Assembly (NCBI GenBank): GCA_030386875.1 | Contig: CM059557.1 | Coordinates: 56,436,514 to 56,500,513 of the forward strand | From: Morinoia aosen | Taxonomy: Eukaryota; Arthropoda; Malacostraca; Amphipoda; Talitridae | Reading direction: 5' to 3' | Length of the DNA: 64,000 nucleotides | Shown here: positions 5,991 through 63,174 of the stretch, one piece after another | How positions within the stretch are numbered: position 1 is the first letter of the stretch | Layout of the letters: every line of letters starts with the position of its first letter | Made by a program: the position numbers and the translations under genes | Notes under the pieces: generated by a model | What the model saw: the letters and a program-made list of their open reading frames with translations, nothing else | Databases searched by the model: none | What the model was told of the DNA's origin: nothing

Positions 5991-6091
5991 TCATCAGCTA
6001 TTAAAAAAATTAAAAAACAAACGTTAGCACATAATTACAAGTCACAAACCATACACGTATACCACGGTATGCAGAATATTGTATACTGAAT

Positions 6092-8236
6092 ACAACATCA
6101 CTATGCAACAATGCTCATCACAACCTCACAATGCAACAAACTCAACACAATCTCACAATGCAACAAACTCAACACAACCTCACAATGCAACAAACTCAAC
6201 ACAACCTCACAATGCAACAAACTCAACACAACCTTACAATGCGACAAACTCAACACAACCTCACAATGCGACAAACTCAACACAACCTCACAATGCGACA
6301 AACTCAACACAACCTCACAATGCAACAAACTCATCACAACCTCACAATGCAACAAACTCAACACAACCTTACAATGCGACAAACTCAACACAACCTCACA
6401 ATGCGACAAACTCAACACAACCTCACAATGCGACAAACTCAACACAACCTCACAATGCAACAAACTCATCACAACCTCACAATGCGACAAACTCATCACA
6501 ACCTCACAATGCGACAAACTCAACACAACCTCACAATGCGACAAACTCAACACAACTTCACAATGCGACAAACTCATCACAACCTCACAATGCGACAAAC
6601 TCATCACAACTTCACAATGCGACAAACTCAACACAACTTCACAATGCGACAAACTCAACACAACCTCACAATGCGACAAACTCAACACAACTTCACAATG
6701 CGACAAACTCAACACAACCTTACAATGCAACAAACTCATCACAACTTCACAATGCGACAAACTCATCACAACCTCACAATGCGACAAACTCAACACAACC
6801 TCACAATGCGACAAACTCAACACAACCTCACAATGCGACAAACTCAACACAACCTCACAATGCGACAAACTCATCACAACTTCACAATACGACAAACTCA
6901 ACACAACCTCATAATGCGACAAACTCAACACAACCTCACAATGCAAAAAACTCACCACAACCTCACAATACGACAAACTCATCACAACCTCACAATGCGA
7001 CAAACTCAACACAACCTCACAATGCAACAAACTCATCACAACCTCACAATGCGACAAACTCAACACAACCTCACAATGCAACAAACTCAACACCACCTCA
7101 CAATGCAACAAACTCATCACAACCTCACAATGCGACAAACTCAACACAACCTCACAATGCAACAAACTCATCACAACCTCACAATGCGACAAACTCAACG
7201 CAACCTCACAATGCGACAAATTCAACACAACCTCACAATGCAACAAACTCAACATAACCTCACAGTGCAACAAACTCAACACAACCTCACAATGCAACAA
7301 ACTCAACACAACCTCACAATGCAACAAACTCAACACAACCTCACAATGCAACAAACTCAACACAACCTCACAATGCAACAAACTCAACAAAACCTCACAA
7401 TGCAACAAAGTCAACACAACCTCACAATGCGACAAACTCAACACAAACTCACAATGCAACAAACTCATCACAACCTCACAATGCGACAAACTCAACACAA
7501 ACTCACAATGCAACAAACTCAACACAACCTCACAATGCGACAAACTCAACACAACCTCATAATGCGACAAACTCAACACAACCTCACAATGCGACAAACT
7601 CAACAAAACCTCCCAATGCAACAAACTCAACACAACCTCACAATGCAACAAACTCATCACAACCTCACAATGCGACAAACTCAACAAAACCTCCCAATGC
7701 AACAAACTCAACACAACCTCACAATGCAACAAACTCATCACAACCTCACAATGCGATAAACTCAAAACAACCTCACAATGCAACAAACTCAACACAACCT
7801 CACAATGCAACAAACTCATCACAACCTCACAATACGACAAACTCAACACAACCTCACAATGCAACAAACTCATTACAACCTCGCAATGCAACAAACTCAA
7901 CACAACCTCACAATGCAACAAACTCATCACAACCTCACAATACGACAAACTCAACACAACCTCACAATGCGATAAACTCAACACAACCTCACAATGCAAC
8001 AAACTCAACACAACCTCACAATGCAACAAACTCATCACAACCTCACAATACGACAAACTCAACACAACCTCACAATGCGACAAACTCATCACAACCTCAC
8101 AATACGACAAACTCAACACAACCTCACAATGCGACAAACTCAACACAACTTCACAATGCGACAAACTCAACGCAACCTCACAATGCGACAAACTCAACAC
8201 AACTTCACAATGCGACAAACTCAACGCAACCTCACA
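6092..8236. repeat. 27-bp minisatellite, about 79 units
   Basis: A head-to-tail array with unit CTCACAATGCRACAAACTCA plus WCACAAC. Main variable sites are GCG/GCA, AAC/ATC and CCT/CTT. Because 27 is divisible by 3 and most units lack stops, long frames stay open: plus-strand repeats of QPHNATNST and QTQHNLTMR, and a minus-strand 726-aa frame repeating CEVVLSLSH. This openness follows from the repeat and is not evidence for a protein. Clusters of GCA units (about 6130-6230, 7020-7420) alternate with GCG clusters, as expected from local unit turnover. Confidence 0.95.
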
Positions 8237-18089: not shown

Positions 18090-20283
18090 CTCAGGAGGTT
18101 GGCCCTGTTACACACTCCCTGTCAAATACTCCTTCAAATGAGAAACTTTCATCAGTTTAAACACCAACTCTTGCTCGGACAAAGTAATGGACTTTGAAAG
18201 TGTCTTCTGCCAATGCTAGGTTCACATTAAGTGGGCGATGAAAAATGCGCCATTTATTTGCAAGTATCCGAAACGTGCATTCAATATATCTGCGAGCCCG
18301 TGAAAGCCTATAGTTAAATATGTTTTTTTTTTTTACTTAAGAACTTTCCAGCATATGGCTGCATAATTTCTTGAGTAAGGCCAAAGGCTTCATCTGCCAC
18401 AAACACGAAAGGCATTGGTGTCTCAAACCCAGTGGCGGATTTGTGTGCAGGAGGAATGTTTAGGGTTCCGTTTTCAAGTTTCTTGAAAAATGCACTTTCT
18501 TTGAACGCAGTATCATCTGAGGACTTTCCATACGCACCCACGTCAATAAAGAGGAAATTATATGAAGCATCACATACAGCAACGAGCAAAATGGAAAAAT
18601 AATTTTTGTAATTATAGAATAATGAACCACTATTCTCTGGCTTGATTAATCTGATGAGTTTCCCACCTAAGGCATCTACGCAATGAGGGAAATTTGTCTT
18701 TTCCCAAAACTGAGTCGCGGTTTCCATCCAGAAATGTTTTGTCTGTTAAAGAAAAGAAATTGGCTTCACTCTTTCCCAAATGGCCGTGCAGACTTGACGT
18801 ATGATAGTAGAAATTGTAGATATGCCGAGTCTGTACTGGTAATGTAGATCACTCATAGTAGCTCCGGAGCCAAGGTATCTGTAACAACAATTGATTTTAT
18901 ATGTTATTATTAAACTCTATTCTAGTTCATTTTTGTAACAATCTTCTATTTTCCCTTTGTTTCCGCTACTTGTCCCCAGAAGAAGTGGAAGGGAATTCGA
19001 GCCAGTTAAACTAGAGAGCTGTTGAAGAAAAAATACAAAAAAAGTAGATCAGGTGCAAATAGACGAAAGCAGTACGTGCATTTCGAAATCCTCAGTTTTC
19101 TTGAAACGGTTACGAAACCTACTACAAGCAGCATTTACGAAAACAAAGATGAGGATGTTGATAATGACATTAACGTAGGGACTCCAAGGGAAAAAGAACA
19201 AGAAAATCCTTCAAAAAAATCTAAAATAAATAAAATAAATGATGACCTTATTGATGACCTTAAGTTCTAAAGGCCAAAGTACATGAGGAAAACCAACAGC
19301 AATCGGATGAAACGAACGAGGATAGGTTGTTCTTACTATCCCTCGTATCAGACCTCCAGAAAGTACCTGCTGACAGGAAGCTGCAAGTAAATATAAGCAT
19401 ATTGAATATCATCTGCCAAGCACAAGTTATCCAACAACCACTCATTCAACATTCAACTTTACCCATTTACAATCCGACTTGTCAACCTCTGAATTTTCAT
19501 CTATTTCAGCAGCCAGCATTTCAAGATCAAAGTCGCAATCATTGGCAAATGAAACCTACGACAGCAGCTATTGGAAATGATCCTACGCAGTGTCCTGCAC
19601 CAACACCGTCTCCTACTTTTTCTGACAGTAGCAGTATAATCAATTTCAGATTTTCTGAGGAACATTTTCAGCTCCAATAAATTACACAAATACTTGAAGA
19701 TGTGAAAAATGAAATATGTGGTAATTATGCACCAAAAAATGCGAAATTAAATGATGCAGTTTGTGTAATTTACTAATGAATCAGTACTCGATATTTACTA
19801 CCATAAAAGTTACACGAAAAAGTTGATTTTGATATCATAGCAGTATTATCTATATACCTATAACTTTGGTGGGCTCCATATATGAACTTCACAGAAGTTT
19901 CTTTAAAAAGTCATGTATTTTCTACATATAAATATCTTACCTCAAAGTTACTACAAGTTTTTCATCTGGCCTTATGCTTCTTCTCATGTTTGTATCAGTC
20001 CATCTGATGTCATTCTCGATGAGGCTGAGTAACTCCTCAAACGAAGGCTTGCTCATACGAAAGTAATTAAAAAATTATTCTCATCTGTATATAAATCATC
20101 ATAAAGTGTATGATGTACACCTTTGTATATTCTTGATGTTAACATCGCATGAGTTTTCATTCTTCTTTTTCGAGAGCGTTTCATTTTCTTGAGCAGTAAA
20201 GCCAATAGAAGTAACTCAGCACTTGAAGAAGGCATTCTTGTGACAGAGGGTTTCCTGGGCTGGTTGTGAGCAGAGACGGTCAA
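18090..20283 (-). pseudogene. Harbinger DDE transposase, decayed, three exonic pieces
   Basis: Read on the minus strand. The N-terminal piece (about 20283-19942) gives MLTSRIYKGVHHTLYDDLYT and, after a one-base shift in a T run, RMSKPSFEELLSLIENDIRW with TNMRRSIRPDEKLVVTLR, ending at a GTAAGA donor. The middle piece (18887-18314) begins RYLGSGATMSDLHYQYRLGI, then NFPHCVDALGGKLIR, NFLFIDVGAYGKSSD and VADEAFGLTQEIMQPY. These are the family's GA(D)GKH, DVGA.G..SD and DEAF.L blocks. The first catalytic aspartate reads as glycine (ALGGK for ALDGK). The C-terminal piece (below 18314, another frame) retains the NYRLSRARRYIE and FGILANKWRIF-type blocks. Several lesions; inactive. Confidence 0.8.
18983..19680 (+). 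pseudogene. Harbinger companion gene, rest of MADF plus BESS motif
   Basis: After an acceptor-like TGTCCCCAG the frame reads KKWKGIRAS, a stop, then REL and KKKYKKSRSGANRRKQYVHF with FEILSFLE, the second half of a MADF domain. An acidic, lysine-rich linker follows. A second frame from about 19324 gives EDRLFLLSLVSDLQKVPADR and KLQVNISIL, a clear BESS protein-interaction motif, then a Gln/Pro/Ser-rich tail to a stop at 19680. At least one internal stop and one frameshift make it a pseudogene. Confidence 0.7.
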
Positions 20284-34900: not shown

Positions 34901-36003
34901 TCATAAATCATCCAGTCGTTCCTTTGTTGCAATTACGATCGGTCCTAAAAAGCAAGTAATGGAGAGCCTTAGAGCGCAGGCGTTTCGCAAAATTTATTGA
35001 AGTTCTAAAGGCTCATTAAAAGCAAGGGTCCAATGAGCTTCAGTCGGCGGAATATTTTCTGGAATTTCATTCTGATTTCCACGGGCTCTAAAAACAGGAA
35101 AATGGTCGGCGTGAGCTCACCCAGAATTTTTAGTTCACTCATATTTTCATGTAGCCAGGATCTCAAAACATGAAATCATTATCCCAAACTTTAACGAAAA
35201 AGTTCTATTCGTTTTTTATTTAAAGATATCAGACTTGGACTGGTTGTTTAAACTAAAACATAGCTAAAACAATTTTACTTTAATAATTTGTACACGTGAT
35301 GAAGTTGTAAATGTAACCAACTTCCTCAGGATACTGAGTTCATCCTTGGGTATTTTTTTTTTTTGTTCTTTGAACCAGTTTGTTCGAATTTGTTTCGAGG
35401 TTTGCTATTCACCAAAATATTTTTTTTAATGTTGACTATTATACATGATTAAAATACGATATTTTTAGTAGGATTGTGACCACACGACTTACAACGTAGG
35501 ACATGACGTCACTGACCCAGAATTAACGTAATTCGTGACAAAATATTTAATTCGACAATATGACCACTAACGTACTTTTCCAGTGATTGATTGATTAAAA
35601 GAAAGTTTTAGCCACCCTTTACCACGACAAAGATGTTCAAAGAGAGGAAGGAGGAAGGCACCATTTAGTATGGAATTAAGGGAACGCGGAATCTATGCAC
35701 AAGGTTCATTGAAACAGCAAGCTAAGAAAGAATTCATGAAACAAGAAAAAATTTGAAGAAGAAAGTAGTAGGTGCTGAAAAACAGGACAGCAGTGAACTG
35801 AAAATAGGTGGTCCTTAACAAAATATAAATCTATATTATTTCAACATGAAGGCCTGCCTAACTCTCAGCTCGGGCCCTCACACATTTTCCCCCTGGAAAA
35901 GCAAATTCCCATGGATACAACAGTTGCATCCCCCTGAGGCCTGGGTTCATTTCTAGTTTAAGTTCCCACAATTTCCACCGGATCACAAACTGCACCAAGT
36001 GAC
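31934..36003. repeat. 4.1-kb tandem duplication, copy 1
   Basis: From GGTGAAACCCTTCGAAAATG to TGCACCAAGTGACC the sequence is repeated almost exactly at 36045-40117. I noticed only about half a dozen differences, such as a T/C change near 32497, a one-base loss near 32590 and homopolymer length changes. The unit holds no recognisable gene: its frames of 65-105 codons lack domains. It ends with a copy of the 330-bp dispersed repeat. Confidence 0.95.
35600..35938 (+). repeat. 330-bp dispersed repeat, copy 1
   Basis: Member of a family with core blocks AGAGAGGAAGGAGGAAGGCA, CACCATTTAGTATGG, GGAATCTATGCACAAGG, GTAGTAGGTGCTGAAAAACA, GGACAGCAGTGAAC, GGGCCCTCACA and a CCCCTGAGG end. No coding frame, clear polymerase III boxes or terminal inverted repeats are seen, so its class is unknown. 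Confidence 0.85.
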
Positions 36004-39000: not shown

Positions 39001-40117
39001 AACGGACTCCTCATAAATCATCCAGTCGTTCCTTTGTTGCAATTACGATCGGTCCTAAAAAGCAAGTAATGGAGAGCCTTAGAGCGCAGGCGTTTCGCAA
39101 AATTTATTGAAGTTCTAAAGGCTCATTAAAAGCAAGGGTCCAATGAGCTTCAGTCGGCGGAATATTTTCTGGAATTTCATTCTGATTTCCACGGGCTCTA
39201 AAAACAGGAAAATGGTCGGCGTGAGCTCACCCAGAATTTTTAGTTCACTCATATTTTCATGTAGCCAGGATCTCAAAACATGAAATCATTATCCCAAACT
39301 TTAACGAAAAAGTTCTATTCGTTTTTTATTTAAAGATATCAGACTTGGACTGGTTGTTTAAACTAAAACATAGCTAAAACAATTTTACTTTAATAATTTT
39401 GTACACGTGATGAAGTTGTAAATGTAACCAACTTCCTCAGGATACTGAGTTCATCCTTGGGTATTTTTTTTTTTTTGTTCTTTGAACCAGTTTGTTCGAA
39501 TTTGTTTCGAGGTTTGCTATTCACCAAAATATTTTTTTTAATGTTGACTATTATACATGATTAAAATACGATATTTTTAGTAGGATTGTGACCACACGAC
39601 TTACAACGTAGGACATGACGTCACTGACCCAGAATTAACGTAATTCGTGACAAAATATTTAATTCGACAATATGACCACTAACGTACTTTTCCAGTGATT
39701 GATTGATCAAAAGAAAGTTTTAGCCACCCTTTACCACGACAAAGATGTTCAAAGAGAGGAAGGAGGAAGGCACCATTTAGTATGGAATTAAGGGAACGCG
39801 GAATCTATGCACAAGGTTCATTGAAACAGCAAGCTAAGAAAGAAGTTCATGAAACAAGAAAAAATTTGAAGAAGAAAGTAGTAGGTGCTGAAAAACAGGA
39901 CAGCAGTGAACTGAAAATAGGTGGTCCTTAACAAAATATAAATCTATATTATTTCAACATGAAGGCCTGCCTAACTCTCAGCTCGGGCCCTCACACATTT
40001 TCCCCCTGGAAAAGCAAATTCCCATGGATACAACAGTTGCATCCCCCTGAGGCCTGGGTTCATTTCTAGTTTAAGTTCCCACAATTTCCACCGGATCACA
40101 AACTGCACCAAGTGACC
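36045..40117. repeat. 4.1-kb tandem duplication, copy 2
   Basis: Direct repeat of 31934-36003, offset about 4111 bases. The 41 bases between the copies (36004-36044) contain AGAGTATCAT and CTAGAGTATAGTATCA. These resemble the unique sequence after copy 2 (CTAGAGTATCATT at 40125), as if the junction was filled by copying nearby DNA during end joining. Confidence 0.95.
39711..40056 (+). repeat. 330-bp dispersed repeat, copy 2
   Basis: The equivalent of copy 1 within the second unit of the 4.1-kb duplication, so it arose by duplication rather than by its own insertion. Confidence 0.85.
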
Positions 40118-48506: not shown

Positions 48507-48730
48507 CTACAACTCGTCATGCATCTCCTCCGACTCGCCGCTATCATCAATCACCTCTTCCTCTCCTTCGTCAGAGTCGAGCACGTCTTCCTGAGCGTCA
48601 TCCTCCGGTAGCTCCGGCTCTTCTTCAATGGGCTCATCCGCCGCAATGCCAAGCGTTGAGCGCAACATTTCTTCCACGGATGCTGCGAATTCTACGGTGT
48701 CCTTAAGCATGAAGCCGGACCGAAGTGTTG
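48507..48730 (-). CDS. Gp93: Gp93 (GRP94/endoplasmin) last coding exon, ends HDEL
   Basis: This exon follows an acceptor TTTTGCAG. It completes a codon begun by the previous exon (G plus CA, alanine) and continues TLRSGFMLKDTVEFAASVEE, then MLRSTLGI, and an acidic tail of about 40 residues (EEEPELPEDDAQED and onward) ending MHDEL and a TAG stop. TLRSG and the helix that follows are part of the Hsp90 C-terminal dimerisation domain. The acidic tail is typical of the ER paralogue, which binds calcium. The terminal HDEL is an ER retrieval signal read by the KDEL receptor, so the product is lumenal, not the cytosolic Hsp90 that ends MEEVD. Length 224 nt; enters in phase 1 and is in frame with all upstream exons. 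Confidence 0.95.
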
Positions 48731-49454
48731 CTGCAAAACGAGAGTTTCATTAGAACATGGGATATGTAGCCAGTCACACAGAACTAGTTTCATTAGCACG
48801 AGAGCTCTAAAGAAGACCTGGTAAAGGACAGTCTAATTCCAGTCAAATTTATATTTTCAGCGGGAAGAGAAGCATAGTAATCCACCAAAGCGAATGCCTA
48901 ACATTAAGGTGCCTAAAACACTAAAAATTTTGCAACCATATTGGAAAGACACTCGAACCGGAGATCGTGATCCACAACTTTGAATGCAAAGAAATTCAAA
49001 GAAATCTACTAAGATACGGCATTTATGGAAGACACTTGAAAAATAAGTTTAAAATAAATAATTATAATTCTTATTATATAAGAAAGTTTTAGCCTCTTAA
49101 TTGCACGACAAAGATGTTCTAAGAGAGGAAGGAGGAAGGCACCATTTAGTATGGAATTGAGAGAACGCGGAATCTATGCACAAGGTGCACAGAAACGGGA
49201 AGCCAAGAAAAAAGTTCATGAAACAAGAAAAAGTTGAAGAAGAAAGTAGTAGGTGCTGAAAAACAGGACAGCAGTGAACCGAAAAAAGATGGTCCGTAAC
49301 AAAACAGAAACCTATTCTATTTCAAGCAAAGGAAGCCTACCTAACCTTTAGCTCAGGCCCTCACATAGTCCCCCTGGGAGCGCAAATTCCCATAGATACA
49401 ATACCTGTATCCCCCTGAGGGGAGCTTAAAATAAAAAGGAACTCAAAACCATAC
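48731..49454 (-). other. Gp93 intron with a dispersed repeat
   Basis: Between the last two coding exons. About half of it is copy 5 of the 330-bp repeat, which begins only about 30 bases after the splice donor. Confidence 0.8.
49088..49424 (+). repeat. 330-bp dispersed repeat, copy 5 (Gp93 intron)
   Basis: Starts near AAGTTTTAGCC, as copy 1 does, and ends CCCCCTGAGGGG. It is opposite in orientation to Gp93. Confidence 0.85.
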
Positions 49455-49588
49455 CTGTTCTGAACATCATCTTGGCGATATCGACAGTGGATTCATCCGT
49501 CTCTCCCGCCTCGACTCTCTTGAGAAGCTCTTTCATGATTGGGTGCCGGGGGTTGATCTCGAGAGTTTTCTTTTGGTTCAGGTAAAAT
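49455..49588 (-). CDS. Gp93: Gp93 exon, C-terminal dimerisation domain
   Basis: A 134-nt exon with acceptor TTACCAG and donor GTATGG. It enters in phase 2 (its first base A completes CA to glutamine from either alternative exon) and leaves in phase 1. It encodes FYLNQKKTLEINPRHPIMKE, then LLKRVEAGETDESTVDIAK and MMFRT. NQKK.LEINP.HP is a signature of all Hsp90 C-terminal domains and here matches the ER paralogue. The same acceptor must serve both alternative upstream exons, 52234-52370 and 54180-54316, and the phase fits each. Confidence 0.95.
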
Positions 49589-52233: not shown

Positions 52234-52370
52234 TGTCTCTGGACGTCGTCAGCCTTGCTGTGGGTCTGGGCGGAGACGATGCGCTCCATGTTCGCGGTCC
52301 AGCCGAACCGCGAAGACACGAGGGCGCACGGCGACGAGTCCAGCCGCTCACTCACCTCAGCCTTCGAGAT
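52234..52370 (-). CDS. Gp93: Gp93 alternative exon B (canonical-looking client-binding helix)
   Basis: A 137-nt exon, acceptor GCGAGTCCAG, donor GTGCGT, entering in phase 0 and leaving in phase 2. It encodes ISKAEVSERLDSSPCALVSS, then RFGWTANMERIVSAQTHSK and ADDVQR. It matches the GRP94 segment V-S-x-R-L-x-x-S-P-C-A-L-V...GW...NMER that opens the C-terminal domain. MERI..AQ is close to the mammalian sequence as I remember it. It is a homologue of the exon at 54180-54316, with the same length and phases and 25 of 45 residues identical. Third codon positions are mostly G or C (40 of 45), like the constitutive exons. It cannot be spliced together with exon A without shifting the frame. Confidence 0.93.
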
Positions 52371-54179
52371 CTGGACTCGCGTCACACCAGGCAACATTAG
52401 TGAGTGCAACCCATAAACCAACCCACAGATTTGACATCGTACCCTAATGTTGAGAGAACGGGTCACGCTGGTGATGAGGGTGAACAAAGAAATGACAGAA
52501 ATAGCCAGAAAAGGTGCATTTGAATCAAACGCATAGGAAAGTTTTTCTACGCTGACACGTGGGGTAATACTTCCCAAAACGTGCAAGACTTTACGTGCAC
52601 AATCACCCTTGAGGTGCATCAATAACCGAGTACATCAAAAGCTTAAAAAATACAATACTAAAGACGCTGCAGCAAGATGCCTTCCAAATATCAAAAGGCC
52701 AAACAGAAGGGAAATGAGAAAAACGCACAACTAAGCCATAAAATTTCTATGGTCAGCCAATAACCATTCTGCCGTGACTACTACGAAAAAAAGTCTAGAA
52801 ATTGCGGAAAAGTAATAGGAAAATACACTTCAATAATTCAGTTGGTCAGTCAAAGCAGAGAAACAAAATTTGACGGGCACCGAATTTTGTAAATCTCCAT
52901 CCACGTGCAACGCATCGTAGGGCTAGGCTACACGCGACACCTGTCCAGCAGTACTGGCCTTACAAGGAGCGACCAACTGAGCGTTCTGCGTCTTTTAACG
53001 CGAGCACTAATCAAACGGCGTCTAAAACCACCATTCAGCGAACTTAACGCACCACTGCAATTAAATATCTGTTTTGTTTCAATTAGAGGCATCTTGACGA
53101 TATGACAACCGATTGAGATGTATATTGGACTAGTCCTAGTATCATGCGGTAGTATCATACGCTTCCTTTACTTACAATGAAAAATTAACGTGAAGTGCCT
53201 TTTTCTACATGAGAGGGTCTAGACGGAAGATAAACAAAAATGGAGTCAATAATTCGTGACCTGTAACACTGTGTGATCTGCAATGAATGTGGTTTGAACT
53301 TCGTTTTATTGACAAAGCTGGCTCCTACAAATGAAAAATTACTAGTCCATTGAACATACAATATATTTTCTACTGAAAAAAGCGCATAAGCAACAGATGC
53401 ACAAGGAAAAGTAAGTCAATTTGAACTTATCCCAATAGAACTTTCAACTGGCAAACACGTATCACTTTGAGTCAAAGAAAAATAGTGAGGGAACTCTACC
53501 CATGATCCGCCTAAAATGAAAGGTCTCGTGTCGAGAATCGATTAACTTGAGAAAACCCAGAAAAAATATGATAGGGTAAACTCCAATGACTGCACATTGA
53601 AGAAATCTGTAGAGAAAAGTTTCAGGAACAGGCATCTTAGAGTAAATTGAACCATAAAAAAGAAATGCGCACATAAGGTGGTGCGCAGTAAAAATGAGAA
53701 CGGCAGTGCAACAATGGAAACATTCGTAGCAATACGGAATTTGAACATTCGTTCCGGCAGCGACATTTGGAAGCAGTACAAGAACAAACACTCCTGTCTA
53801 AGCACGCTTGAACGCAACCAACTAAAATAAATGCAAATTAAAATCGTATCAAAAAATTAACACGCACTAAAAATCGTGTAACGCGCAAACCGTGACTAAT
53901 TATTTCGTGCTTGTAAAAATGTGAAGGTTTCACAACACCAGCATTCTCGTATTTGAGTGCAAGTCTCACACGAGCACATCGAGGAATGACAGGAAACGCA
54001 AAAAAGTACAAATCGTAGCAATTTCACCTAAAACCAATTCACGCATTCATTTTCTATAGCGCTGCCAACAATCTAGCACAATGTTGAACGAAATATGGAA
54101 TGCTGAGCAAGGCGTTTCTACAGGAAACCATGCACCGAACAAGACAGCCAGAAAAAAATTGAAAGTGAGAAATTCTCAC
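52371..54179 (-). other. Gp93 intron between the two alternative exons
   Basis: 1,809 nt. Short frames inside it show no domains. Paired RNA elements that enforce mutually exclusive splicing could lie here, but I could not test folding. Confidence 0.7.
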
Positions 54180-54316
54180 TGCTTGGAAACATCCTCAGAT
54201 TTTTGGTGCGCGTTGGAGATATGCAGTCTCTCCATGTTGCCAGTCCACCCGAAGGAAGAAGCGACCAAAGCGCAAGGCGAGGTAGTCAGCCGTTCGCTCA
54301 CCACACATTTGTTAAC
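54180..54316 (-). CDS. Gp93: Gp93 alternative exon A (diverged client-binding helix)
   Basis: A 137-nt exon, acceptor GCTATGTCAG, donor GTGAGA, entering in phase 0 and leaving in phase 2. It encodes VNKCVVSERLTTSPCALVAS, then SFGWTGNMERLHISNAHQKS and EDVSK. The first half is very close to the conserved GRP94 sequence (VVS.RLT.SPCALVAS). The helix after NMER is unusual (LHISNAH in place of the I..AQ type). The frame is fully open and both splice borders are intact, so it is not an obvious pseudo-exon. Third positions are less G/C-rich (28 of 45) than in exon B. It lies upstream of exon B in the transcript. Each can join the preceding exon (ending LKEQ, phase 0) and the following one (phase 2), so they are alternatives. 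Confidence 0.93.
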
Positions 54317-55810: not shown

Positions 55811-56056
55811 CTGTTCTTTGAGCGCCTCCTCGGCCAGCCACGTGGTGAGGGGCTCGAACTGCTTCTTGAGCTCCTCAGTCCTCTCCTTGGCGGCCTCGCT
55901 GCTCGAGAGTGACAGACCTTCCTTGGCCACATTCTGGAACTTCTTGCCTTCGAATTCAGGCAGGGCGTTAATGGCATATTCGTCAATGGCTTCCACGAGG
56001 TACAGAACTTCGAAGCCCTTCTTCAAGAGGCGCTCCACGAATGGGGAAGTAGCCAC
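55811..56056 (-). CDS. Gp93: Gp93 exon, end of middle domain
   Basis: A 246-nt exon (82 codons, phase 0 at both ends), acceptor TTGTCAG, donor GTATTG. It encodes VATSPFVERLLKKGFEVLYL, then VEAIDEYAINALPEFEGKKF and QNVAKEG, ending EEALKEQ. SPF.E.L..KG.EVLYL....DEY....L.EF.GK...V.KEG is the conserved end of the Hsp90 middle domain leading into the C-terminal domain. It joins in frame to 62800-63174 upstream and to either alternative exon downstream. Confidence 0.95.
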
Positions 56057-56215: not shown

Positions 56216-56227
56216 GGAAAGATCAGA
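56216..56227. repeat. LINE target-site duplication, copy at the 3' end
   Basis: GGAAAGATCAGA, directly abutting the (TAA)n tail. The identical 12 bases occur at 62353-62364. Confidence 0.85.
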
Positions 56228-56391
56228 TTATTATTATTATTATTGTAATTGTTTAACCACCGTTACCCCTAACAAGTGATCCGCACAGTGAGTCGCAGTA
56301 ACATATTACATTTCAAGCACAATTCAAACTAAAATTATAAATGGCATCACTATCAATTTGCCTGTCTTTATAATTTAGAACTCATGGGAAA

Positions 56392-59300
56392 TTAGATTAC
56401 ATAGAATAAGTCAGCTTCTTGGAGAAACCTATAGAGGCCTCCCCCCAATTCAACCGGGCCCGAGTCTCCCAGCAACTCGCTCATCACCACCTCGCTCTGA
56501 CCGAAGTAACGGCGTCTTAGTGCAGCATATCGTTGGCACTCGGTGAGAATGTGTTTTACACTCACAGTAACTTGACACTGGAGACATTGCGGCGGCGCAG
56601 TCCCGTTCATCAAATACTCATGCGTTAGAAGTGTATGTCCAATACGGAGGCGACACAGCTTTATCTCCCACTCCCGGTTGGTCCAGCAGCTTGTTCGGAG
56701 GGGTTGCGTCGTGTCCTTAATTTCTCGGAGTTTGTTCTCAGTCACTTCACGCCAGTCATGATTCCAATTTTGATGGACGAGTCTTTTAAAGGCACATGCG
56801 AAGTCTCCGCGAGGCATTCCTTTGCGTATCTGGCGCTCTCGTTGGGTGGCAGACTGTGCAGCCTCGTCAGCTCTCTCGTTCCCCGCCACACCCACATGGC
56901 TAGGCACCCAGCACAATGTATAATGTTTTCCGATCTCAGTCATCAGCGTTAGGATCTGCGTTATTATAGGATGGGTGTTGCAGGGTTTTATCATACTTTG
57001 TAGGGCGCTACGACAGTCTGAGACGATTGTGATCATACTCGTATCCACCGCTCGAGATGCGCGCACCGCGGACAGTATTGCACACAACTCAGCTGTGAAC
57101 ACCGAAGCCACTGAAGGGAGTTTGACCGCTAGTATGTTTAACCCATGGACGGCTGCATATGCCGTGCCATGTTCAGTTCTAGATCCATCGGTAAAGAAGA
57201 CAGCTGTTTCAGAGTGACGTACGAAGTGATCGAGGAATAGGGCTCTGGATGGGGCTGCACCAAGCAGTCGTTTATGCAGGTCAGCCAGTTCACTGCACAC
57301 AGCTATCGGGGGAGAGACCCACGGCGCAATGGGGGAGACGCTTTCCGGAGCCACGCACTCCAGTGAGATGTCATAGTTTCTTAGTATCGTTTGCAGGCGA
57401 ACATAAAATGGTTTGGGGCTTCTTTCGTTTGCATGCAGGCGTCCCGAAGCACAGCGAATTTTTGAGAGAATTTGTTGAGCAGGATCAGAGAGCAGTCTAA
57501 GGTAATAGTTTACGATCTTTATTTCCAGGTAATACGCTAAAGGTTTTATTCCGGTTTCTGCATGGAGAGATAAGATAGGTGAACTTTTGAACGCACCAGT
57601 AGCTACCCGAAGGGCAGAATTCTGCACAGTGTGCAATGATTTCATTAGGGTAGCACATGCAGAGCTATAAGCTTCTGAGCCATAGTCCAATTTTGGCTTT
57701 AGTAGACCCATATAAAGACGGAGCAAGGTTTGCCGATCTGCTCCATACTGGGTATGGGATATGACTTTCATTAAGTTTATGTGTTGTGAACATGATCGTT
57801 TGAGGGATTGGATGTGAGGCCGCCAGGTAAGGCTCGAGTCGAAGATTAATCCCAGATACTTGAATTGTTCAACATGTGGTAGCACTGCATTGTTTAGATG
57901 AAGTTCGGGGGAGGCTTTCAGACAGCCACGAGTACGGCAGAAATGCATAGTCACTGTTTTGGATGGGTAGAATTGAAATCCAGTGGTTGCTGTCCATTGC
58001 GTGAGGTGGTTAATAGCGATCTGCAATTGTCGTTTTAGGAACTCCGGTTTTTTGCCCGACACATAGATGACGAAGTCATCTACGTATAGAAGCCGATGGA
58101 CACTCTGCGGAATTTCATCAGCGATATCATTTATGGCAACAAGGAAACACACGCAGCTGAGGATACTTCCCTGAGGGACTCCTCCTCGGAGGCTCTTGGT
58201 TGACGAGTGGACATTCTGGAGACGGACTCTAATTTTTCTATTATTCATGAAATTGTGTAGGAAAGCAAGAAGGTGCCCATGTATACCATATTTCTGAAGT
58301 TTCAGTAGGATTCCGTATGTCCATGCGGTGTCATATGCTTTCTGTAGGTCAAAGAAGACGGCAACAAGGTGATTCTTTGAAGTAATACTCGAAGCGATGT
58401 GTGATGACAGCGTCACCAAATGGTCGGTGGTACTTCGGTTCTTCCGGAAGCCAGATTGGATATTTACTATTTTCCTAGTCGATTCCAAAAACCAGACTAG
58501 TCTCCTGTTAACAATTTTTTCAAGCAGTTTGCTTAAGCATGAGGTGAGAGCAATTGGACGGTAACTATTTGGAGATGTCGGATCTTTACCAGCTTTTAAA
58601 ATTGCTATTATTATTGTTAGTGACCAAGTTGCTGGGACTTCCTGCTGGGACCATATTTTGTTGAAGAGAGAGAGTACTGCAGGGAGGAAGGTTTCGTGGG
58701 CTTTTTTAATCATGCTGTACGAGATGTCATCATGGCCGGGAGCGCTATCGCTGGCTGTGCGTAAGGCAGTTTTAAGTTCTGACATGGTTAAGGGGCTATT
58801 GTATGCTTCATTGTCTCCCCCCAACCGCAGAGGTCTTCCTTCCCACCTTTCCTTATATCGCGTGAAGGACGCGTCGACGGTTGCGTTATCACTCACTGAT
58901 GAGAAGTGTTCCGCCAGCATCTCCGCAGCTTCCAGCAACGTTTCAGTCAGGTTGTTCGTACGGGGATCTCTCAACTTTGGGGTAGGAGTCAATTTAAATT
59001 TTCCGGACAGCTTTTGGACTTTTTTCCATACTAAGTTTAAGCTGGTTTTGATATTTATACTACTGATGAAAGCTTTCCAGGATGATTGTTTACTTGTCAG
59101 GAAGGTCTTCCGGCAGATTGCCTTTGCTCTATTGTATCGGATCCTGTTATACGCATTGTTACATCTTTCCAAGGCTCTTTCAGCTCGCGTACGCTCGCGC
59201 TTTGCCATTTCGCACTCAGAGTTCCACCACGGTACCGGAGGTCGCGGTAGAGAGCCGCTCTTGCGAGGTATGGATGTATCAGCAGCTTGCTGTAAGATGT

Positions 59301-60099
59301 TGGTCAAAGTAGCTGTGTGATCCTCAACATTCTTTCCATTCAGCTGGTCGATATCCTCACTTGACAACTGGGTCAGTCTGCTAAACAGAGTCCAATTTCC
59401 TTTGTTTAGGTCATACCGTTCATATCTGGCTTGTATATTTTGAGGATGGACAGGATCGAGATGGATAGGGTAGTGATCGCTGTCATAAAGGTTTGCATTA
59501 ACATGGTATTTAAAATCCATATAGCAGTCAGGAGAGCATAGTGTTAAATCGATGACAGAGAGGGATCCCGTCTGCCTGTGAAAATGAGTAGGTTGTCCGT
59601 CGTTCATGATACAGATGTTATTTTCTCTTACTATTCTTTCCATGAGTTGTCCTTTATCATTTACCACGTTGTCATTCCATAGTTGGTTTCGAGGATTGAA
59701 GTCCCCCATTATAATATACGGGGTAGGCAGCTGGGAAATCAAATTTTCAACTTCTTGGTGTTGTATATTGATGTGCGGCAAGTAGACTGAGCATATGGTG
59801 TATGTCCGGTGCAGATTAATACGTAGTGCTACTGCTTGCAACGTGGTACGCAAGTCAATCCGGTGATGCGGTATTGTCCTGTGGATCAATATTGCAGCGC
59901 CCCGCTCGTGATCATCAGCGCGGGTCACACCAGAGGTATAGAGAGAGTACTGAGTGGGTGGTGTCACCGTTCTGTCCCGGAGCATGGTCTCTTGAAGGCA
60001 GACACATGCAGGGTGGTATAGATTGAGGAGTTGTTTAAGTTCACAGAATTTGGTTCGGTACGATTCTAAATTCCATTGAATAAATGAATCAAAATTCAT
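56392..60099 (-). CDS. LINE ORF2: endonuclease, reverse transcriptase, RNase H
   Basis: 1,235 aa. Residues 1-225 are an AP-type endonuclease that nicks the target: QWN at 8-10, LQET with Glu37, MGDFN at 131-135, SVIDL at 181-185, SDHY at 207-210. Residues about 455-700 are reverse transcriptase: FFDLQKAYD at 582-590, GVPQGS at 640-645 and the catalytic YVDDF at 672-676. Residues about 967-1085 are RNase H with TDGS (Asp971), Glu1004, SD (Asp1028) and ERAD (Asp1078), plus WVPSHVG. A C-terminal knuckle C1172-C1175-H1183-C1188 follows RIGHTLLTH. All catalytic residues I can check are present. The ATG directly follows a TAA, in the same frame as ORF1. Confidence 0.95.
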   Translation of the reverse strand: MNFDSFIQWNLESYRTKFCELKQLLNLYHPACVCLQETMLRDRTVTPPTQYSLYTSGVTRADDHERGAAILIHRTIPHHRIDLRTTLQAVALRINLHRTYTICSVYLPHINIQHQEVENLISQLPTPYIIMGDFNPRNQLWNDNVVNDKGQLMERIVRENNICIMNDGQPTHFHRQTGSLSVIDLTLCSPDCYMDFKYHVNANLYDSDHYPIHLDPVHPQNIQARYERYDLNKGNWTLFSRLTQLSSEDIDQLNGKNVEDHTATLTNILQQAADTSIPRKSGSLPRPPVPWWNSECEMAKRERTRAERALERCNNAYNRIRYNRAKAICRKTFLTSKQSSWKAFISSINIKTSLNLVWKKVQKLSGKFKLTPTPKLRDPRTNNLTETLLEAAEMLAEHFSSVSDNATVDASFTRYKERWEGRPLRLGGDNEAYNSPLTMSELKTALRTASDSAPGHDDISYSMIKKAHETFLPAVLSLFNKIWSQQEVPATWSLTIIIAILKAGKDPTSPNSYRPIALTSCLSKLLEKIVNRRLVWFLESTRKIVNIQSGFRKNRSTTDHLVTLSSHIASSITSKNHLVAVFFDLQKAYDTAWTYGILLKLQKYGIHGHLLAFLHNFMNNRKIRVRLQNVHSSTKSLRGGVPQGSILSCVCFLVAINDIADEIPQSVHRLLYVDDFVIYVSGKKPEFLKRQLQIAINHLTQWTATTGFQFYPSKTVTMHFCRTRGCLKASPELHLNNAVLPHVEQFKYLGLIFDSSLTWRPHIQSLKRSCSQHINLMKVISHTQYGADRQTLLRLYMGLLKPKLDYGSEAYSSACATLMKSLHTVQNSALRVATGAFKSSPILSLHAETGIKPLAYYLEIKIVNYYLRLLSDPAQQILSKIRCASGRLHANERSPKPFYVRLQTILRNYDISLECVAPESVSPIAPWVSPPIAVCSELADLHKRLLGAAPSRALFLDHFVRHSETAVFFTDGSRTEHGTAYAAVHGLNILAVKLPSVASVFTAELCAILSAVRASRAVDTSMITIVSDCRSALQSMIKPCNTHPIITQILTLMTEIGKHYTLCWVPSHVGVAGNERADEAAQSATQRERQIRKGMPRGDFACAFKRLVHQNWNHDWREVTENKLREIKDTTQPLRTSCWTNREWEIKLCRLRIGHTLLTHEYLMNGTAPPQCLQCQVTVSVKHILTECQRYAALRRRYFGQSEVVMSELLGDSGPVELGGGLYRFLQEADLFYVI

Positions 60100-60129
60100 T
60101 TACAAATAGAGGTACTGGTTTGTTTTCCT

Positions 60130-61992
60130 TCAGGTTCCGATCACTTGAATTTTTTGGCTTTCTGCTGATCTCGATGCTCGGTCTCGGCTTCTTGATGGTG
60201 GCGATGTCGTCCGCTGTTTCTTGGTTGGTGCAGTAGGCTTCGGTTTGTAGGTCATTGAGTTTCTACTGGAGTTGCCATCGTCATCGTCGCTTCCATAGCC
60301 TTGGAGGTTTGTAAGGCTGGAAGTTGTCTCCCTCCGCTTGAAAGAGTATTTGGTGAGAGAAGCCGGCGTAGGTTTTTGGCCTTTCACTGTTTTAGGGGGT
60401 TCTCCGTTTGGCTCCAGTTGTTTTCGTTGTCGGTTGTAGACTGTAGGCACCTTGGGCTTAGAGAGTGTGGCGTTATTTATTTCTTTTTGCGTCGTCCCTT
60501 TCGGTGAAATGATGGGTTGGGAGACGGCAACTGTTGGAGTTCCTGAGCTTGTACTAATTGAATCGGTGGCCTTCGATTTTACATCAGCTGTAGCTGGAGC
60601 GGATTTAGCGTTGCGAGGAGTAGAATCAGTGCACGCAGTGATTTGGTTAGGAGGTTGTTCATTGTTGTTTTTTGCCTGAACTGGCCTTATTTCTGGTTTT
60701 GCAGGTTCTTGTTCAGTGTGAGTCGGCTGTTGTGGCATATATTCCTGAGGAGCTGCAGAGTTGGGTTCTTCCGCAGGGGTACTTGTATCTCCCCTAACTA
60801 CCGCGCTATACATCCGCTCATGCTCCGGATGTTTCTCCAAAACGAGGTCCATGGCTTCTGAGCGCGAGGTCTTCAATCTCTGTTGAGTGGCTAAAATTTC
60901 ACTTTCAATTTGATATTTTGGGCATTGTTTATCATTTGAGTAATGAGGCTGCCCGCAATGGTAGCATCGGACGGCATTAGGACAGGAGCTTTTTTGGTGC
61001 CCTTCCTGCCCACATCGGGAGCACGTGTCTGCTTCTCTGCGGCAGTATTTTGCAACGTGGCTATAGCGTTGGCATTTAAAGCATTGTTGCGGTCTTTCTT
61101 TATATTCTTCTACAAGCTCACTGTGCCAAGATGACAATTTCACAGCTCTTGGCACCGTGTGCTTTTGGAATGTCAGGATGTATGTGTCGGTAACAACTTT
61201 CTCGCCATCTCTCCTCAGCTCTATTCGCCGCAGGTCAATCACTCCCTGGTCAGCTAGGTGGTCCTTCAGTTCTTCCATAGAACACTGTCCGAAAGTCTTG
61301 CTTCGGACTACACCACGAACAGTGTTGAGTGATCGGTGGGGCTCTATTACTACTCCCTTTCCGCCAATGCGGTCCAGTTTCATCAGCTTATCTGATTGGG
61401 TTGTACTATTTGTCTCAATGAGGAGACTGTTATACCCAGATTTTACGATTTTCTTTGGAGTACCAATTGTCTTAGTAATGTCGCGTTCTGCCAGCAACAC
61501 GTTCAAATCTCTGGAGATATTGACCCCAGGGAATCGTACAGTATAATATTTGATATAGTATGGTATGGAGTTCTCGAACATTCCTTCCAGTCTCAGCATC
61601 TGACGCGCTCGCCGGTCATCTCGTCGTCTCCTCTTCACCTGTCGTCGGTTCATTGTTCTCCAGATGCTCTGTTCATCTCCGGTCGCAGCTTCCTCATCAT
61701 TGTTAGGCTCTCGGGTTGTCTCAGCTTCCACTGTTTTGGCCCTCGAAGCGTCTTCGCTACATAAGTTTCTCTCATTCGTCTGATCTTTTCCATTATTTAA
61801 TTCAGTCTCGGCACTCGCTCCTTGTGTGGGGTCCACACTTAGAGGAGGCAAATCGTTAGTCTGCATTAGAGCAGAACTAGCAGTATCCATTTGAGTGTCC
61901 AGGTCGTCAGCGGCAGGTAGGGATTGATGGGTTTCCATCGCGTACTGGGGAGACCCCGGTTGGCTCCCCCTAGCACAATCGCTAGGGGGCAC
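60130..61992 (-). CDS. LINE ORF1: RNA-binding protein with three zinc knuckles
   Basis: 620 aa, starting MPPSDCARGSQPGSPQYAME. Residues 1-110 are low-complexity and acidic; 113-132 are strongly basic (RRQVKRRRRDDRRAR). About 145-285 is an RRM-like region followed by a conserved HTVPRAVKL segment. Three CCHC knuckles follow: C304-C307-H312-C317, C324-C327-H332-C337 and C343-C346-H350-C357. The last 200 residues are Pro/Thr/Ser-rich with a basic end. Such proteins coat the element's RNA and accompany it to the target. The stop TGA is separated from the ORF2 ATG by nine sense codons and a TAA, all in the same frame. Confidence 0.93.
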   Translation of the reverse strand: MPPSDCARGSQPGSPQYAMETHQSLPAADDLDTQMDTASSALMQTNDLPPLSVDPTQGASAETELNNGKDQTNERNLCSEDASRAKTVEAETTREPNNDEEAATGDEQSIWRTMNRRQVKRRRRDDRRARQMLRLEGMFENSIPYYIKYYTVRFPGVNISRDLNVLLAERDITKTIGTPKKIVKSGYNSLLIETNSTTQSDKLMKLDRIGGKGVVIEPHRSLNTVRGVVRSKTFGQCSMEELKDHLADQGVIDLRRIELRRDGEKVVTDTYILTFQKHTVPRAVKLSSWHSELVEEYKERPQQCFKCQRYSHVAKYCRREADTCSRCGQEGHQKSSCPNAVRCYHCGQPHYSNDKQCPKYQIESEILATQQRLKTSRSEAMDLVLEKHPEHERMYSAVVRGDTSTPAEEPNSAAPQEYMPQQPTHTEQEPAKPEIRPVQAKNNNEQPPNQITACTDSTPRNAKSAPATADVKSKATDSISTSSGTPTVAVSQPIISPKGTTQKEINNATLSKPKVPTVYNRQRKQLEPNGEPPKTVKGQKPTPASLTKYSFKRRETTSSLTNLQGYGSDDDDGNSSRNSMTYKPKPTAPTKKQRTTSPPSRSRDRASRSAESQKIQVIGT

Positions 61993-62352
61993 CTTGTAAC
62001 TGCTTACAAGCTCCTCAGATGATATTGGTTTAATAATCTACATAAAAGAACAAAATAATACAAAACCCCGATGTAGGGGGGGCCGCCTGCGTTGGTTCTA
62101 CCTACAACAAGCTATCAAGAATAATTAAATGAGGTCAGCCTGTTATTTTACATTAATTATCTAATGTATATCAAAGACAAGTAGGTATACTAATAGTACC
62201 ACCACGTAAAGGTGCAGGTCGACTAGATACACTCTAGTAAGAATGTACCTTCTATCAAATCCTTGTCAATATTCAGCAATGTTCCCTTCACACATATAAA
62301 CAAATACACTTGGTACCAGTAAAACGTGGTAAAGGGAACAGTGAAAATTCCA

Positions 62353-62799: not shown

Positions 62800-63174
62800 C
62801 TCTTCCTTAGAAGCACCAGCCATGTAGAAAATGTTCTCCTGGCTGTCCTTCATGCGACCAACATAGTCTGCCAAACTGGTCTTCTTGTCATCCTTCATTG
62901 AAGAGCTGCTAAACCTCAGCAGCTTGGCGAGGCGATTACGATTGCTCGTGTCTTCCAGCACTCCGAGCTTCAAGTTAGTAGAATATTCCTTATAGAAGTT
63001 CTCGAATTCTTCGTCGTCGAGCTTCTTGAACATGTCCAAGGCCTTGCGGACGAGTTTCTTCTTGATGACCTTAAGAAGCTTGTGCTGCTGGAGAGTCTCG
63101 CGAGAGACGTTCAAGGGAAGATCGTCGGAGTCCACAACGCCTCGGATGAAGGACAGATAGTTGGGCATCATGTC
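62800..63174 (-). CDS. Gp93: Gp93 exon, middle domain
   Basis: A 375-nt exon (125 codons, phase 0 at both ends), acceptor GTTTTCAG, donor GTATGC. It encodes [40 protein letters not shown], then [19 protein letters not shown] and [27 protein letters not shown] is the Hsp90 middle-domain signature; the conserved arginine in NVSRE helps activate the N-terminal ATPase. Lack of the cytosolic-type sequence and the downstream HDEL identify the ER paralogue. Exons for the ATPase domain and signal peptide lie beyond the right edge. Confidence 0.95.

Follow-up and report, generated by a model that had tools for sequence, protein, structure and literature searches.

The GRP94 gene and its surroundings

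The minus strand of the 64-kb window (the whole stretch of Morinoia aosen DNA analysed here) carries a GRP94/Gp93 (endoplasmin) gene, whose exons are listed in Table 1. All the coordinates on which the original prediction was built have been re-verified. Like other genes known as GRP94, gp96, endoplasmin or Gp93, it encodes a protein of the HSP90 family with endoplasmin as best match and an HDEL end. Both spliced products match Pfam HSP90 (214.8 and 218.1 bits), and the two isoforms score 221.8 and 215.2 bits against endoplasmin, whereas their scores against Hsp90-beta do not exceed 140.9 and 144.4; as judged from these predicted products, the gene is a member of the HSP90 family nearer to endoplasmin than to cytosolic Hsp90. 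The C-terminus reads MHDEL, followed by a stop codon at 48509-48507, so that the ER retention signal is present. Upstream of 63174 the window yielded no further exon, and the first coding exons presumably lie outside it.

Table 1. Exons of the GRP94 gene, from upstream to downstream, and other features of the window
Feature	Position	Strand	Description
GRP94 exon (middle domain)	62800..63174	-	375 nt, phase 0 to 0; Pfam HSP90 1.3e-63; best PDB matches are endoplasmin
Exon preceding the pair	55811..56056	-	246 nt, phase 0 to 0; endoplasmin 5e-29; tblastn with dog GRP94
Alternative exon A	54180..54316	-	137 nt, phase 0 to 2; product VNKCVVSERLTTSPCALVASSFGWTGNMERLHISNAHQKSEDVSK
A-B intron	52371..54179	-	1809 nt
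Alternative exon B	52234..52370	-	137 nt, phase 0 to 2; product ISKAEVSERLDSSPCALVSSRFGWTANMERIVSAQTHSKADDVQR
Exon following the pair	49455..49588	-	base 1 finishes the split Gln codon CA+A, with A or B alike
Last coding exon	48507..48730	-	HDEL, then stop
LINE-type non-LTR retrotransposon	about 56225-62037	-	long frames of 635 aa (zinc knuckle) and 1235 aa (endonuclease, RT, RNase H); TAA-repeat tail
27-bp minisatellite	6085-8236		roughly 80 copies with 92% matches; both strands stay open over long frames, that on minus being 732 aa with a 9-residue LSHCEVVLS-like repeat
Open frame with BESS motif	19264-19677	+	8e-7
DDE_Tnp_4 transposase fragment	18317-18745	-	9e-14; adjoins the BESS frame

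Several repeats and mobile elements accompany the gene. The retrotransposon lies inside a GRP94 intron, on the same strand and some 170 bases before the exon that precedes the pair, and its still open frames suggest a young insertion. Near-identical translated matches (HHLVWN) at 35629-35700, 39741-39812 and 49110-49181 (plus strand) point to a putative dispersed repeat, one copy of which would lie in a GRP94 intron. The frames of the minisatellite are probably open because 27 is divisible by three. BESS, found in the open frame beside the transposase fragment, is a mainly arthropod motif and hints at arthropod DNA.

The exon pair and the segment that it encodes

Two homologous exons, A and B, lie in tandem within this gene, and the anatomy of the pair is certain. 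As had been claimed, both are stop-free, identical in length and phase, preceded by AG and followed by GT; they share 25 of 45 residues and sit between an upstream exon ending at 55811 and a downstream exon starting at 49588. Their DNA is 58% identical, their alignment score amounts to 60-63% of the self score, and the SPCALV..FGWT.NMER core is undamaged in both. In tblastn searches (low-complexity filter and composition correction off), exon A as a query recovers exon B at E 8e-16, and dog GRP94 recovers both copies in the same single gene, A at 6e-14 and B at 3e-12. The next-best matches in the window have E values of 1.5 for exon A, 0.22 for exon B and 0.21 for dog GRP94 as the query, and no third copy of the paired exon appears in the 64 kb. 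Exon A shares 26 and exon B 24 of 45 residues with dog GRP94, so neither is clearly ancestral.

The numbering follows the 9n9j chain, in which GWSGNM at 653-658 and IM at 661-662 fix Met658 and Met662. Aligned to it, each exon spans GRP94 residues 631-675 and runs two bases into codon 676. According to two reviews, residues 652-678 are the client-binding segment used by integrins and Toll-like receptors, Met658 and Met662 are critical for integrins, and the proinsulin/IGF site overlaps this segment (PMC8002708, PMC7465916); the two methionines are described as essential in integrin folding, although not for Toll-like receptors (PMC7465916), so that client choice by GRP94 is no simple matter. 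Of the 27 residues of the segment, 24 thus lie wholly inside the exchanged exon. The main interest of the pair would lie in this overlap, by which the swapped exon carries most of the reported client-binding segment, a point absent from the original prediction.

The differences between A and B are unevenly distributed. Up to Arg660, 21 of 30 residues are identical; in the 15 after it, just past NMER, only 4 are (Fisher p 0.01, merely a guide, as this boundary was picked after viewing the alignment). From residue 661 onwards, exon A reads LHISNAHQKSEDVSK and exon B IVSAQTHSKADDVQR. Met658 is retained in both, while exon A has His-Ile and exon B Val-Ser in place of Met662-Lys663; with Met662 replaced in both, neither exon simply reproduces the vertebrate site. 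Insect Gp93 holds an A-like ISNAHQK stretch, which is not counted as evidence here. At the position of residue 634, exon A has an additional cysteine, and it also contains an N-K-C triplet; B has neither, and a redox difference or a rare glycosylation difference in the ER is possible.

Constraint on the two exons and their predicted inclusion in the transcript

By the Nei-Gojobori method, 23.9 of 32 synonymous sites differ between A and B (pS 0.747, near saturation), as do 33.1 of 103 nonsynonymous sites (pN 0.321), and the differences at codon positions 1, 2 and 3 number 18, 11 and 28 of 45. These values were compared with simulations of 400 runs per setting, in which A had been neutral since the duplication and B evolved at an omega of 0.1, and whose slightly different counting gives observed values of 0.740 for pS and 0.324 for pN. 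At total neutral distances (d) of 0.6, 1.0, 1.5 and 2.5, exon A stayed open with a pN no higher than observed in 119, 22, 0 and 0 runs, and the observed pS was attained as well in 0, 2, 0 and 0. The same joint test was passed at d 1.5 by 142 runs with A at omega 0.2 and by 161 with A at 0.1, at d 2.5 by 214 and 296, respectively, and with A at omega 0.5 by 50 runs at d 1.5 and none at d 2.5.

Since the test is one-sided in pN, it rejects lasting neutrality and leaves the strength of the constraint on A unfixed. The mean pN nearest to that observed (0.33) came from omega 0.5 on A at d 1.5, and such a relaxed constraint fits the observed pN equally to a stronger one at larger divergence. These results, which rest on 32 synonymous sites, argue for an old duplication whose copies have both been constrained to some degree for most of the time since. 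Past purifying selection on the pair is thus well supported, and the long-standing selection on both exons that had been proposed holds in so far as lasting neutrality of A was rarely or never compatible with the simulations; as regards the present, the recent death of one copy would still be compatible.

It is rather unlikely that only one of the exons works and that the other is either a duplicate that functioned for long and has recently died, or a sequence spliced in merely as noise. Splice sites were scored with generic consensus frequencies, and the acceptor of exon A (1.0) is the weakest of those scored, that of B reaching 2.6 and those of four other exons 4.0, 5.7, 8.2 and 5.7. The GC content at third codon positions is likewise lower in A (0.62) than in B (0.89), an exon that had died recently would still show an open frame and a low pN, and an omega of 0.5 on the A branch would fit as well. 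Nevertheless, frame, phase, borders and core are intact in both exons, the last exon has the same third-position GC content as A (0.62), and the simulations rarely or never allow for a copy that was neutral ever since the duplication. If just one exon were used, the case would be that of an ordinary fossil. The weak acceptors of A and B also fit a regulated inclusion, and the donors (A 5.0 and B 4.3; others 7.7, 4.2 and 9.2) do not distinguish the pair.

The reading frame behaves as originally predicted, in that only single inclusion preserves it. Over the exons within the window, from 63174 to 48507, the joins with A only and with B only each yield a frame of 1116 nt that ends in MHDEL and a stop, and a premature stop arises when both exons or neither are included. 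If A is joined to B, the shifted frame meets a stop that starts 255 nt short of the last junction, so nonsense-mediated decay (NMD) is predicted; if both are skipped, the stop starts only 41 nt short of that junction, so the message may escape decay, yet without HDEL.

This arithmetic could also serve an off switch, with joint inclusion or skipping leading to a stop and NMD and thereby tuning the level of GRP94 rather than making two proteins. A length of 137 nt, which is not a multiple of three, and the position of the A+B stop agree with such a device. Moreover, in a human survey, 377 of 629 clusters (60%) would shift the frame if jointly included, and joining reads were found in 83 of these 377 (PMC5740500). 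A pure poison exon, however, need not retain a fold-compatible sequence that encodes a client site, as both copies do, and an off switch is on these grounds improbable. Weaker still is an assembly artefact that brought in one copy from another locus or haplotype, of which no sign was seen and which is hardly credible given that tblastn found no second copies of exons 56056-55811 and 49588-49455 or of the last exon in the window (63174-62800 not being queried), that A and B share orientation and phase, and that a DNA identity of just 58% is too low for two haplotypes of one exon.

The explanation that we favour, and consider probable, is that A and B are two mutually exclusive exons of one GRP94/Gp93 gene and give rise to isoforms differing in client preference. 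Mutually exclusive use of the two is likely. In each transcript, either A or B would be chosen, and either choice would keep the frame intact to the HDEL end of the ER chaperone; inclusion of both or neither would break it, and the A+B message would be removed by NMD. We infer that both exons are spliced into messages and that the choice between them is regulated. The isoforms would have the ATPase, the HDEL end and most of the dimerisation scaffold in common, and would differ in the surfaces after Met658; by reasoning from these surfaces to the reported client site, we infer a switch of clients, with each isoform preferring different clients, tissues or stress states. The broader proposal of an Hsp90-family chaperone whose client range is changed by splicing, with one ATPase engine and two interchangeable client-binding segments kept apart by a frame-shift lock, is offered more tentatively, as something that may be so.

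As to how joint inclusion would be avoided, the A-B intron is too long for steric exclusion, no steric or U2/U12 ground for exclusivity is visible by eye, and the GT donors of both exons look ordinary. A docking/selector RNA structure was rejected, as the best ungapped long-range pairing among the three introns was matched by 22, 58 and 17 of 60 dinucleotide shuffles and is thus not above chance expectation. Four inverted repeats were taken as chance, and Rfam gave no matches at gathering scores. With neither a steric, a U2/U12 nor a pairing basis seen, exclusivity would depend on the frame shift together with further regulators.

Comparison with known systems

The pair resembles the tandem mutually exclusive exons of myosin heavy chain, Dscam, Cacophony and Ca-alpha1T, a kind covered by three surveys (PMC3228551, PMC5740500, PMC9741552), in that adjacent homologous exons share phase and length, and also in that these lengths shift the frame upon joint inclusion. 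Unlike in those cases, the host gene here is a chaperone. A further parallel is the exchange of a region crucial for a partner, which is reported for Cacophony (PMC9741552). In exon length, in reading frame and splice sites without a stop, and in protein homology, the properties used by Pillmann et al. (PMC3228551), the pair can be classed as a predicted cluster of mutually exclusive exons; their minimum alignment score is 15%, computed differently from the 60-63% found here. Among 16,180 Drosophila X-chromosome transcript exons (counted per transcript) in that study, only 90 that are annotated as not mutually exclusive share these features.

As the original prediction held, other GRP94 genes are not known to have more than a single version of this segment. 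This gene differs from GRP94/gp96/endoplasmin/Gp93 in holding two genomic versions of residues 631-675, with Met662 replaced in both. Cytosolic Hsp90 alpha and beta are similar in being two forms of a chaperone with most of their sequence in common; they are, however, the products of two genes (PMC9496497), whereas one gene with a choice in splicing is proposed here. If this proposal is correct, one gene could yield two chaperones that grip their clients differently, and a cell could retool its ER toward different receptors or secreted proteins by exon choice. Splicing would thereby become a means of regulating a general ER chaperone, and a pair of segments that differ with all else constant would permit a direct test of client choice by GRP94.

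Relatives were sought in viral and prokaryote collections, neither of which gave a useful one, so that the pair is not dated by them. A scan of viral contigs with the isoform alignment gave 69 stretches that fit the pattern, none of them confirmed. A DNA pattern of the type G-W-[TS]-[GA]-N-M-E-R matched eight viral contigs, one of which (L006) encodes an uninterrupted Hsp90 stretch that is, over 174 columns, 42.5% identical to dog GRP94; the rest gave only short motif matches or nothing. Among the prokaryote genome contigs (26 stretches, one confirmed), the stretch from a Chloroflexi MAG matched over 22 residues and was taken as chance.

The anatomy of the pair is of a known kind, and the gene and the swapped site appear to be new among the open-licence matches listed. 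Those matches, as far as titles and the starts of abstracts go, include no exon pair of GRP94, Gp93, Hsp90 or endoplasmin. The terms Hsp90 and chaperone are absent from the main text of the three surveys cited above, as are Gp93 from that of PMC3228551 and endoplasmin from those of PMC5740500 and PMC9741552. Two endoplasmin isoforms may already be present in genome annotations of this animal or its relatives. The peptide string NAHQK is absent from the open-licence PMC main text. Of six further strings, two occur in the open-licence text, in four papers, namely GWSGNMER and GWTANMERI, the latter lying within exon B and equally in human Hsp90-beta.
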